Assembly (NCBI RefSeq): GCF_001705235.1
Contig: NZ_MCGV01000002.1
Location: 124,001 to 188,000, forward strand
Length of the DNA: 64,000 nt
Direction of reading: 5' to 3'
From: Clostridium pasteurianum
GTDB taxonomy: Bacteria > Bacillota > Clostridia > Clostridiales > Clostridiaceae
Made by a program: the position numbers and the translations under genes. Under the pieces are notes generated by a model. The model did not search any database, was not told the origin of the DNA, and saw only the letters and a list, made by a program, of their open reading frames with translations. This document shows, one piece after another, positions 2,489 through 26,874 of this stretch (its first letter is position 1; each line of letters starts with the position of its first letter).

Positions 2489-2517
2489 TTTACATAAAAT
2501 ATATTTAATGCTATAAT
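2489..2517 (+). promoter_or_regulatory. sigma-A-type promoter of the RRNPP regulator
   Basis: TTTACA at 2489-2494 and TATAAT at 2512-2517 are separated by 17 bases, about 50 bases upstream of the regulator start. No clear operator palindrome is visible. Confidence 0.6.
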
Positions 2518-2565
2518 TATATAATAGTAACAAACAATTTTTACACTAGAGGGGCAGTGATATTT

Positions 2566-3894
2566 ATGGGGGCTGATGGAATAATATCTGTAGCTGATAA
2601 ACTTAAAAATTTAAGACAAAAGTACAACGTAAAGCAGGAAGAAGTATCTGGCAATGATGTGACTAGAAATTTAATAAGCCAAATAGAACATGGAAAAGCC
2701 AATCTCACTAAAAGTGTAGCTGAAACTGTAATAAAAAACTTAAAAAATATTTGTACTAAAAGACATATTAGGATTGATGAAACTGTAGAATATTTAATGG
2801 AAGATGAAAAATCACAGGCTGATAAAATGCTAGATAAGTATATAGCTGAACTTAAGGATTTAAGTTTTTATAAAGACGATAGCTTTACTTATAAGCTAAA
2901 CCAAGTTGAAAATTTCATGGCTAATTGGGATTTATTAGATAAGAAAATTGCTATTTTTGAACTTGCTGGTGACTATTTTTTCAGAAATAATGATTTGTAC
3001 AAAAGCTCACTGTATTATGAAAAGGCCAAAGCATTAATAAATAGTAACGTTCATAATGAAAAGCTAGTATCTATCTTCAGGAAACTATCAATGGTCTATT
3101 ATTACATGAATAAATATGAGGAAGATATAAAATGTTGTGATTTTGCCTTAAAACGATTTCCTAACATGAGCAAGGAATACTATTCTATATTTATTTTTAA
3201 TAGTTCTTTGTGCTATATAGAAATAAAAGAGTACAGAATAGCACTTTTGCAATTAAAAAAGATTGAAAGTATAGTTAAGGAAATAAATATGGATAAATAT
3301 TATGAACTTTTAGAGCAAGAAGGTGTTTGTTTCCAATATCTTAAAGAATATGATAAAAGTTTAAGCATATTCAACCAAGTAATTAACTCTTTAAGCAAAG
3401 ATAATCATGAATCATACATAATAGCATTATTTAATTTAGTAGATACCTACATTAAACTCGATAATGTTGATATGGCCAGAAAATATTTAAAGGACATTTC
3501 AGAAAATATTGATGGAATATCTCAATCCTCAAAACGTGTATCACAAATATATTGTGAAACAGCAAAATTATGTAAAAAGTTAAATGATCTAAAGCTCGCA
3601 AAAGCATATTTTTTAAAATCTTTAGATTATGCTAAATTATACAATCAATATAGTATAGCGAATAATACACTTTCTGATTTATTTGATATATATGTTATTG
3701 ATGAAGATGATAAAAGAATTAACGAAATTAAAGACATATTTTTATCAGTTATAGGTAAAGGTGAAAAAATAAATTTGCAATTCATAAACAAGCTAATAGA
3801 CTACTACTTAGATAAAAAAGACTATGAATCATTAAGAGAAATTCATAACTACATGAAATCATATGTGAGAGAACGTGGTTGTTGTGTTTCATAA
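2566..3894 (+). CDS. RRNPP-type HTH/TPR regulator (putative quorum-sensing receptor)
   Basis: 442-residue protein with an N-terminal XRE-like helix-turn-helix (about residues 7-60, containing QEEVSG and LISQIEHGKANLT) followed by about 350 residues of tandem TPR-like helical repeats, the architecture of Rap/PlcR/PrgX-type peptide receptors. Such proteins bind a short re-imported peptide, which changes their DNA binding. ATG at 2566 is preferred: GAGGGG at 2549-2554 is 11 bases upstream, whereas the GTG at 2557 is only 2 bases from it. The small exported-peptide ORF 80 bases downstream (3977-4099) on the same strand is the expected partner. Function is inferred from architecture and neighbourhood. 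Confidence 0.85.
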   Translation: MGADGIISVADKLKNLRQKYNVKQEEVSGNDVTRNLISQIEHGKANLTKSVAETVIKNLKNICTKRHIRIDETVEYLMEDEKSQADKMLDKYIAELKDLSFYKDDSFTYKLNQVENFMANWDLLDKKIAIFELAGDYFFRNNDLYKSSLYYEKAKALINSNVHNEKLVSIFRKLSMVYYYMNKYEEDIKCCDFALKRFPNMSKEYYSIFIFNSSLCYIEIKEYRIALLQLKKIESIVKEINMDKYYELLEQEGVCFQYLKEYDKSLSIFNQVINSLSKDNHESYIIALFNLVDTYIKLDNVDMARKYLKDISENIDGISQSSKRVSQIYCETAKLCKKLNDLKLAKAYFLKSLDYAKLYNQYSIANNTLSDLFDIYVIDEDDKRINEIKDIFLSVIGKGEKINLQFINKLIDYYLDKKDYESLREIHNYMKSYVRERGCCVS

Positions 3895-3976
3895 AAAATA
3901 CAAATTTAATATAAGACTATAAAACCATAAAAAATTTATAAATACATTAAATTATATATGAAAGGATATGATTATT

Positions 3977-4099
3977 GTGTTTTTTAAAAATCATAAATTA
4001 AGTATGAAAACTTTACTTTTATTTATTTTTATTGCAGGACTATATATGTCATTTGCAGGCTTTAGCACTATATCAGCTCTTCCAATTAGTGCTTGGTAA
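3977..4099 (+). CDS. putative RRNPP signalling pro-peptide
   Basis: 40-codon ORF with GTG start at 3977, AAAGGA 11 bases upstream (the overlapping ATG at 3968 is too close to it, and ATG 4004 is an internal alternative). It encodes a basic N-terminus (FFKNHKLSMK), a hydrophobic secretion core (TLLLFIFIAGLYMSFAGF) and a short polar tail ending in ALPISAW. This matches pro-peptides exported by Sec, trimmed and sensed by the adjacent RRNPP receptor. The active peptide would come from the C-terminal residues (STISALPISAW or part of it). It is too short for routine gene callers. A terminator follows at 4129-4170, so receptor and peptide form one unit. Confidence 0.75.
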   Translation: MFFKNHKLSMKTLLLFIFIAGLYMSFAGFSTISALPISAW

Positions 4100-4128
4100 C
4101 TATGATAACGTTATCTATATATTGTAAC

Positions 4129-4170
4129 AAAAGGAGCTATTTGTTAATCATTGGCGCAATGGCTCCTTTT
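4129..4170 (+). terminator. rho-independent terminator after the peptide gene
   Basis: AAAAGGAGC at 4129-4137 pairs with GCTCCTTTT at 4162-4170, with a 24-base loop and T-rich end. It closes the regulator/peptide unit. Confidence 0.75.
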
Positions 4171-4484: not shown

Positions 4485-5087
4485 ATGAGTTATAGTGCAT
4501 GGTCAGAAATAAAAACAAGAAATGGATTTGCAGCAGATGAAATAATATCATCTTTACAAAAATCCATTAGAAGATCAAAGGTTGAAGAAGCCTGTGAATT
4601 TGCATATGAACTGTATATAAGTTCTCCTCAATTACTTGATAAACTATGGAGACGTTTACTTACAATATCAGTTGAAGATATAGGATTTGGCAACTTAAAT
4701 GCTTCAATTTATGTTAATGCAATGAACGAAATGAGAAAAAACTTCCCATATGATGATGGTGACCAACCTATATATTTCATTCATGCTATTCGTATATTAT
4801 GTGAAAGCACTAAGGATAGGTCAAGTGATTATTTAAAAAATATAATAATCAAAGGATTTGCTATGGGTAAAAAACCTGTTATACCTGATGTTGCTTTAGA
4901 TAAGCACACAAAACGTGGAAAAGAAATGGGCCGCGGCTCAAAACACTTCTTCGAAGAAGCAACTAAAGTAATTCCTCAGCTAGAAGTAGATAACGATTAC
5001 AGGGAAAGGTATGGCAAAATTTTAGAAACTTATAATCCTGAAAACAATGTAGATACAGCTTTTACTTACTCAAAAGATCAATTTTAG
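4485..5087 (+). CDS. stand-alone MgsA/RarA C-terminal-like protein
   Basis: 200-residue protein resembling the C-terminal helical (clamp-loader-like) part of MgsA/RarA replication-associated AAA+ ATPases: RSKVEEACEFAYEL, LWRRLLTISVEDIG and the conserved DxHTxRGKxMGRG segment are visible. The ATPase half (Walker A and B) is absent, and nothing upstream encodes it, so this is a free-standing domain, not a truncation. AGAGAGTGAG precedes ATG 4485. The RarA family acts at stalled forks; the role of the isolated domain is unknown to me. Confidence 0.7.
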   Translation: MSYSAWSEIKTRNGFAADEIISSLQKSIRRSKVEEACEFAYELYISSPQLLDKLWRRLLTISVEDIGFGNLNASIYVNAMNEMRKNFPYDDGDQPIYFIHAIRILCESTKDRSSDYLKNIIIKGFAMGKKPVIPDVALDKHTKRGKEMGRGSKHFFEEATKVIPQLEVDNDYRERYGKILETYNPENNVDTAFTYSKDQF

Positions 5088-24765: not shown

Positions 24766-26481
24766 CTATCTTACTTGCAGATTCCAGTTGCTACTATTAT
24801 TATTATCCCAAAGCTTTCCATTTGTAAGGCACATATTTAATTTATCCAATGCTTCAGATGTAACCACTATAGTTGCCTGCCATTTATTATATCCTATTGA
24901 TTTCATTGTAGTATTAGTAATGCCTTTCCAACCATCATATCCCCAATGTAAAGTAACATTAGATGAACCTTGAAGGTTTCTTCCTGAAGCATCATAAGTA
25001 ATTGTGGCAGTGCTACCTGCTACTGGAGCTGTGGGATTACAAGTTACTACACTAGTATTATTGTTATTAAGATTGATGCTAGATAATACAATAACTGAAT
25101 TTCCGGGTAAATTTCCTGTTATCATTCCATTCGAAACGTTAAATGAAGCATTTGCTGTTCCTTGATTTCCATAATTACCGTTCGCTAAATTCGTAGCAGA
25201 GTTAATATAAGTATCTCCCCCTATATTAACAATAACAGTACCCTTATTTCCACGGTCTATTAACATTACTTGATTATTGTTTGCTACTCTTAAATATTCA
25301 CTCTGTCCAGTCATTGCATTATGAAACTTATTTACTATTTTAATATCATCATTTTTCCATAAATTATCTCCCTCAGCTCCTATGAAAGCTCCAGGTCTAT
25401 CAAAGAACATTGGTACAGATTTTGCTCTTCCCGCTATTATACCCCAGCCGAGTTTTACCTGATCATCGGAAAGCTTACTTTCACCATGCTCATAATTATC
25501 ATGAGTTTCAACAAAATCTACTACTTTAGATGGATCGAGTCCTCCCATATCCATAGTACTTACTTCTCCCAAATTATGATCATCATGTATAGCCTTTCTA
25601 AGATTCCAGCCATAAGAACTGGCAGTAACATCCATGAAGCTTTCATAAGCATCAATATTGCAGTTTGTATCCTGAAGCACTTCTCCACAAATATATTCGT
25701 TTGACTTATTGTGCAAGCTTCCTAAAACATTGTCCCAGTAATTACCCGACCATGGCTTATTAGCATCTAATCCTTTGTTAGTTTCAATATGCTTAGCAGA
25801 ATCAAAACGAAAACCACTAGCACCAGCATCTACACATTGATTTAGAAATCTAATTGCCCTCCTTTGAACCTCAGGACTTTGAGTATTTAAATCTGGTTCA
25901 CCTGTTCCACATTGAGTCATTTTCCATCTGTCAGTATAATCGCTAGGACTGCTACATTGTCCATTATGATGATAAAGAGCTTGATCTTTAAAATCAGGAT
26001 CTATATAATCATAAAGCTGATCTGCCTGCCCATTGTTTGCCATATGGTTCATTACAACATCAACTATTATGGATATACCATATTGTTTTGCCTCACTGCA
26101 AAGTGATTTGAAATCATCATAAGTTCCAAGCTGGGCATTACCTATAGCTTGATTTGTAGGCTGATATAAAATCCACCAATTATTTGCATCCTTAGTTCCA
26201 TTTTTTGTACCCTGAACAGGCGACACTTGAACAGTTTTAAAACCTGCTGCTTTAATATTAGGTAATTCACTCTTTATAGTATCAAAAGACCAATCAAAAG
26301 CTTGAAGTATAGTACCATCCTTTGTATTACTAGGTAAATTATTAATAGTATCAGCATATACTACTGATTTGTTTTTTAATAACATACCCTCATAAGAAGT
26401 TGGCAAAACAAAACCATAAGCAGCTAAAGTAACTCCAATTAAACTAGCCAATAATTTTTTTGATAAGCTTTTCCTTTCCAT
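24766..26481 (-). CDS. secreted alpha-amylase (GH13) with C-terminal starch-binding domain
   Basis: 571-residue secreted enzyme that cleaves internal alpha-1,4 bonds of starch. Signal peptide about 1-44 (LASLIGVTLAAYGFVLP core). GH13 motifs: DVVMNH (141-146), GFRFDSAKH with nucleophile Asp227, acid/base Glu267 in ICGEVLQD, and Asp328 in FVETHDNYEH. A linker near 470-480 leads to a CBM25/26-like starch-binding domain (VTLHWGYDGWKGITN ... SSNWNLQVR). AGAGGAGGA precedes ATG 26481. A sigma-A promoter and a cre site lie upstream, so glucose repression by CcpA is expected. Confidence 0.95.
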   Translation of the reverse strand: MERKSLSKKLLASLIGVTLAAYGFVLPTSYEGMLLKNKSVVYADTINNLPSNTKDGTILQAFDWSFDTIKSELPNIKAAGFKTVQVSPVQGTKNGTKDANNWWILYQPTNQAIGNAQLGTYDDFKSLCSEAKQYGISIIVDVVMNHMANNGQADQLYDYIDPDFKDQALYHHNGQCSSPSDYTDRWKMTQCGTGEPDLNTQSPEVQRRAIRFLNQCVDAGASGFRFDSAKHIETNKGLDANKPWSGNYWDNVLGSLHNKSNEYICGEVLQDTNCNIDAYESFMDVTASSYGWNLRKAIHDDHNLGEVSTMDMGGLDPSKVVDFVETHDNYEHGESKLSDDQVKLGWGIIAGRAKSVPMFFDRPGAFIGAEGDNLWKNDDIKIVNKFHNAMTGQSEYLRVANNNQVMLIDRGNKGTVIVNIGGDTYINSATNLANGNYGNQGTANASFNVSNGMITGNLPGNSVIVLSSINLNNNNTSVVTCNPTAPVAGSTATITYDASGRNLQGSSNVTLHWGYDGWKGITNTTMKSIGYNKWQATIVVTSEALDKLNMCLTNGKLWDNNNSSNWNLQVR

Positions 26482-26560: not shown

Positions 26561-26574
26561 TGCAATCGTTTGCA
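26561..26574. promoter_or_regulatory. cre site (CcpA operator) of the alpha-amylase
   Basis: TGCAATCGTTTGCA fits the CcpA cre pattern and is palindromic apart from one base. It lies about 20 bases downstream of the -10 box on the minus strand, a repressing position. Confidence 0.75.
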
Positions 26575-26619: not shown

Positions 26620-26874
26620 TATATGTTACTTCGTGTAATTTATGTATATTACCAGTATAATTTAAAATACTTATGTTCTAAAACATATCGTGAAAAATCC
26701 TTAGAAAATAGCATATATTTAAATCTTATTTACAATTTTAAACTTAAACTCCTATTTTTACATTTATAATACTATCCTTTTTTGTAAATTTATTATTAGT
26801 TTTTTCGAATATAATAGTACACTTTAAAATTATTTTGCATATTAAATTTATATAAAATATAAGGAGGTGTTTTT

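Follow-up and report, generated by a model that had tools for sequence, protein, structure and literature searches.

In clostridia that make solvents, Qss systems affect both solvent production and sporulation, and a compact plasmid-borne unit of Clostridium pasteurianum raises the question of whether it is such a system and, if so, what it would control. The genome (4.68 Mb) consists of two contigs, the second of which (191 kb) includes the stretch of 64,000 nucleotides analysed here, referred to below as the window. At positions 2489-4170 of the window lie a promoter, a receptor gene, a 40-codon open reading frame (ORF) ending in ALPISAW and a terminator. An initial annotation made from the sequence had seen in them a self-contained plasmid system, composed of an RRNPP receptor and an exported signalling peptide, with possible control over the nearby sugar, amylase or hydrogenase genes. 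The four parts that it had recognised (promoter, HTH/TPR receptor, small ORF and terminator) are all present and are listed with the other features of the unit in Table 1. A blastn comparison against a plasmid collection gave no matches. The gene beside the unit (4485-5087) is similar to MgsA/RarA AAA+ ATPases in their C-terminal domain only, with a match just under threshold.

Table 1. Features of the unit, with positions in the window.
Feature	Position	Strand	Basis and remarks
Sigma-A-type promoter of receptor gene	2489-2517	+	TTTACA-17-TATAAT, consensus scan; conserved placement ahead of paralogous receptors
Inverted repeat GTAACAAACAATTTTTAC (GTAA-N10-TTAC), candidate Qsr operator	2527-2544	+	Directly after the -10 box, at the transcription start; putative binding site
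Receptor, Qsr-type RRNPP regulator, 442 aa	2566 (ATG)-3894	+	N-terminal XRE HTH and TPR superhelix; Pfam, phmmer, AlphaFold2 and fold matches
Ribosome-binding site AAAGG	3961-3965	+	11 nt before the GTG of the peptide ORF; same spacing at sister loci
Pro-peptide gene, Qsp type	3977-4099	+	Basic N-terminus FFKNHKLSMK, hydrophobic core, polar C-terminus
Predicted mature signal ALPISAW (x-x-P-x-x-x-W)	4076-4096	+	PxxxW in 19/19 Qsp; aligned with active QspB7 AEPTWGW (PMC7376267)
Near-palindrome TGATAACGTTATC	4103-4115	+	Conserved, just past the pro-peptide stop codon
Intrinsic terminator hairpin	4129-4170	+	RNA fold -19.3 kcal/mol, z -5.8

The promoter agrees with the consensus at 11 of 12 positions, is TG-extended and is followed by a second TATAAT at 2520-2525. 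Comparable matches are equally common in shuffled sequence (25 found against 29.3 expected), and this one counts only because it is top-scoring and stands directly before the gene. With its 442 residues and tetratricopeptide repeats the receptor falls within the range of RRNPP proteins (about 250-500 amino acids); the repeats matched PF13424 (TPR_12) with an E-value of 2.6e-10, and the HTH matches, to PF12844 and PF01381, were weak and sub-threshold. RapI was the only related PDB sequence found by phmmer (E 0.004). An AlphaFold2 model built from 11 paralogues is a TPR superhelix (pLDDT 89), and NprR (Z 22.0) and RapI (Z 21.8) ranked high in a fold search with it, in structural alignments of 11-18% sequence identity. 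Because the scores of unrelated TPR proteins (LGN) equal that of NprR, the fold alone is no proof of RRNPP membership, which rests on sequence, gene order and the peptide.

The peptide ORF begins 82 nt past the receptor stop codon, a placement characteristic of the small pro-peptide genes of RRNPP systems. Translation likely starts at the GTG at 3977, which is preferred since it aligns with the ATG of the sister peptides and follows the AAAGG at 11 nt; an alternative ATG at 3968 is only 2 nt behind AAAGG. The succession of a basic and a hydrophobic part at the N-terminus, a possible Sec-type export signal, was read directly from the sequence, and the stretch FFKNHKLSMK recurs identically in the sister peptide of locus L002. 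At the other end ALPISAW carries the L, P and W conserved at the C-terminus of Qss pro-peptides; the exact ends of the mature signal are putative. The terminator hairpin was not picked up by a simple terminator scan.

The plasmid pair is one of many. Thirteen further receptors are encoded in the same genome, at 34-60% identity, which makes 14 with that of the window. Once the loci had been correctly oriented, a small ORF with a K-rich or basic start, a hydrophobic core and a terminal PxxxW was counted 3' of 11 of the 14; an intact one is missing at L004, where it has decayed, and at L011 and L014, which have none. In C. acetobutylicum ATCC 824 all eight Qsp peptides were recovered, QspB with its AEPTWGW among them, and PxxxW stands at or near the C-terminus of each of the 19 peptides compared (11 own and 8 from C. 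acetobutylicum). Sister peptides of ALPISAW include YFPMSGW, YSPMLGW and YCPFFTW. Between sister peptides dN/dS is about 0.32-0.38. Given the conservation of the pair in paralogues and in C. acetobutylicum, the universal PxxxW and these dN/dS values, it is very probable that the peptide ORF is a genuine Qsp-type gene under selection. The check proposed with the initial annotation, whether related receptors are followed by a conserved small ORF, did not refute it (10 of the 13 further receptors of the genome are, as are all eight of C. acetobutylicum). Its core claim, that the receptor has an exported signalling pro-peptide as its partner, is supported by the recurrence of the pair in paralogues and in other species and by the precedent of QssB (PMC7376267).

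Some of the related loci have departed from this pattern. At L003/L004 (C1:2287965-2290971) two receptors lie in tandem, and the peptide gene of the second is broken by an early stop; L004 may be an orphan listener to the peptide of L003. L084 (C1:4226500-4230500) is a decayed qss remnant, with a frame still ending in FSPEFPW, then TGATAGCGTTACC, and with small ORFs of unknown type further along. In C. hydrogenum and a third relative most of the receptors also have a small secreted-type ORF behind them, though the C-termini differ (L057-L075, L087 and L088): some carry repeated GIGGGFL and others end in IPFIF or SFFNLK, a hint that other peptide codes exist.

Kotte et al. (2020) described the systems QssA-QssH (QsrA-H/QspA-H) of C. 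acetobutylicum ATCC 824, in which L, P and W are conserved in Qsp (PMC7376267). In our tree the window receptor groups with L002-L005 in a clade of five members from its own genome (100/100), devoid of C. acetobutylicum sequences, and this clade belongs to a 19-row clade (100/100) with six of the C. acetobutylicum Qsr; QsrB falls outside the latter and QsrF is not in the tree. The best identity of the window receptor to any C. acetobutylicum Qsr is about 50%. It has no one-to-one orthologue among QssA-H and is not that of the plasmid-borne QssG or QssH; orthology with the plasmid genes CA_P0040 or CA_P0149 was rejected on both tree and gene order, CA_P0149 pairing with L009. With its receptor grouping with QsrA-H, and given the PxxxW shared by all 19 peptides and by the active QspB heptapeptide AEPTWGW, the unit is, judged by sequence, a member of the described Qss branch of RRNPP, in a species-specific clade.

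The unit resembles QssA-H in its qsr-qsp gene order, in an HTH and TPR receptor of equal length and in a pro-peptide of about 40 codons with basic, hydrophobic and polar parts and a terminal L/P/W pattern; two of those eight systems are likewise plasmid-borne, on pSOL1, and the lack of a one-to-one orthologue sets the window receptor apart. By their published description, QSS1-5 (QssR/QssP) of C. saccharoperbutylacetonicum are also RRNPP-type operons of a receptor and a small pro-peptide (Feng et al. 2020, PMC7206700). In the Bacillus cereus group, NprR-NprX and PlcR-PapR likewise combine an HTH and TPR regulator with a C-terminal peptide that is exported and taken up again, re-import being presumed in our case, but have low sequence identity and another peptide motif. 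The AimR-AimP arbitrium pairs of Bacillus phages combine a receptor, a peptide and a DNA element downstream of the peptide gene. Unlike them, the window unit is not part of a phage and no aimX-like gene was seen; in place of two 6-mers with a 25-bp spacer driving aimX, its downstream element is a compact near-palindrome followed by the terminator, and the spacer of its 5' repeat is 10 bp, against 25 bp in the arbitrium operator (PMC6458997).

This 5' repeat, GTAA-N10-TTAC, is perfect in 10 of the 14 receptor leaders of the genome and in two of seven from C. acetobutylicum (CA_C1214 and CA_P0040), the eighth (CA_C3694) having been left out as a gene split in the search. It is imperfect or missing in the remaining four own leaders and in five of the seven from C. 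acetobutylicum, that of QssB included. The spacing is 10 bp in every case, with varying spacer letters. In 200 shuffled sets, covering every four-base arm and spacers of 3-20, no arm/spacer combination was present in more than 5 of 14 leaders, against the 10 observed. Genome-wide the repeat has 68 sites, and 10 of these precede qsr genes; when a -10 box is required four bases ahead of it (TANNATN4GTAAN10TTAC) it is reduced to 10 places, of which six are qsr promoters, and in C. acetobutylicum to seven, of which one is. The other four of the ten match the level of a reversed-pattern control (0 and 3), and neither a further target nor a wider Qsr regulon is claimed. Receptors with the recognition helix TRNLISQIE have the repeat in 12 of 20 leaders, those with other helices (nearly all TRNLISEIE) in 0 of 17; this correlation is support rather than proof because both helix groups follow the tree, and kinship of the paralogues can account for part of the conservation. 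No operator for any Qsr protein was reported in the literature searched. GTAA-N10-TTAC is put forward as a candidate shared Qsr operator, whose position at the transcription start suggests autorepression.

The second DNA element lies towards the 3' end of the unit. TGATAACGTT has 13 copies in the genome, six of which lie on the same strand 1-5 nt past a qsp stop codon (the window, L002, L003, L005, L008 and L012); variants with one or two changed bases follow L007, L009, L013 and the remnant L084, and one of the eight C. acetobutylicum Qss (L062) has an exact copy. The terminator regions of L007, L008, L010, L012 and L013 are much alike despite diverged receptors, which suggests recent duplication or gene conversion; as they look partly like its product, these 3' flanks were not counted as independent evidence. 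Inspection by eye for a sense or antisense promoter at the element gave no version consistent across loci, and an RNA hairpin of TGGTAAC with GTTACC was dropped because it occurs in some loci only. Its placement just 3' of the peptide gene at several qss loci recalls the AimR operator, which is situated downstream of aimP (PMC6458997). That it is likewise a Qsr site nevertheless seems rather unlikely, since it differs from the 5' repeat in sequence and spacing and is separated from the terminator in the window by neither a gene nor a clear promoter. A role as a CcpA (cre) site or as part of the mRNA 3' end, by which carbon status and not quorum would enter, is entertained here with considerable doubt. 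The window copy and L062 match the C. acetobutylicum cre consensus WTGWAAACGWTWWCAW (PMC3507653) at 14 of 16 positions, but in the other copies the fit falls to 11-13 of 16, which some unrelated flanks reach as well; position 5 is off consensus in the TGATAACGTT-type copies, and a cre between stop codon and terminator would have no obvious role.

The pairing of receptor and peptide can also be questioned. A working receptor might answer the PxxxW peptides of its sisters rather than its own, the plasmid unit then being a network node or a decoy. PxxxW is indeed common to all 19 peptides, the receptor frames of L004, tandem to L003 with its peptide lost, and L011, with none, are both still open, and Kotte et al. 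suggested from the mild phenotype of a qspB mutant that QsrB perhaps answers more than one peptide (PMC7376267). We consider this rather improbable, as the pairs differ in the residues that precede P and in those that separate it from W, as specific signals would, and working receptors normally keep their own peptide gene adjacent. Far less credible still is that the small ORF, short and hydrophobic as it is, encodes a membrane-active peptide (toxin or holin-like) repressed by the HTH/TPR protein. The HTH does match a HipB-like antitoxin model of NCBIfam, weakly and far below cut-off, but such a match is generic; moreover, it is the polar C-terminal PxxxW and not the hydrophobic stretch that is conserved, and synthetic QspB C-terminal peptides are active when added from outside (PMC7376267).

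We favour, with a probability of about 0.83, a Qss-type RRNPP quorum-sensing unit in which receptor and pro-peptide are probably co-transcribed and which may regulate itself through GTAA-N10-TTAC. The parts and their conservation, read from the DNA, are the basis of this proposal, in which both genes would probably be transcribed together from the promoter at 2489. By analogy with the QssB system and the wider family, the pro-peptide would leave the cell by means of its signal-peptide-like N-terminus and be processed to a C-terminal fragment of about 6-8 residues around ALPISAW. At high cell density an oligopeptide permease would import this fragment, and its binding in the TPR groove would alter DNA binding by the receptor. 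In C. acetobutylicum the QspB heptapeptide AEPTWGW restores butanol formation in a qsrB-overexpressing strain, and the action of added peptides is indirect evidence for the re-import and binding of QspB (PMC7376267). The operator, autorepression and cross-wiring are proposed in this analysis only. The most likely direct target would be the unit's own promoter, where an HTH dimer on the repeat would repress transcription until peptide binding relieves or alters the repression. As the same repeat stands before most sister receptors and the recognition helices are near-identical, the sister units would probably be cross-wired at the DNA level, each keeping its own peptide.

The other suggestions of the initial annotation fared less well. 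Since the genome has 14 such receptor genes, the unit is not the stand-alone plasmid system it was taken for, and control of the nearby sugar, amylase and hydrogenase genes is not supported. The only other GTAA-N10-TTAC copy in the window (26635-26652), upstream of the amylase gene, is at chance level (1.8 expected), and the amylase was rejected as a Qsr target; the hydrogenase cluster (50-58 kb) is some 47 kb away; and none of the eight qsr mutants of C. acetobutylicum was altered in starch degradation (PMC7376267). The hydrogenase cluster is common to the window plasmid and pSOL1 independently of the receptor, which is located elsewhere. The amylase gene (24766-26481, minus strand) has a cre-like TGCAAACGATTGCA at 26561-26574, between its -10 box and its start, which suggests catabolite repression. 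The most defensible targets of the receptor are its own promoter and those of its sister receptors.

The unit is a well-formed and probably functional member of a family already described, and what is new here are two testable DNA elements, the 5' inverted repeat and the 3' near-palindrome. Tentatively, and at somewhat less than even odds, the Qss units may form one cross-wired network via GTAA-N10-TTAC, in which the expression of each pair is set by the others, with the plasmid copy feeding a chromosomal decision. If so, the plasmid-borne pair would add its own peptide input to that decision. The shared candidate operator makes direct binding tests feasible, and raises the question of why a single bacterium maintains a dozen peptide channels in parallel when they possibly read and write the same DNA switch.
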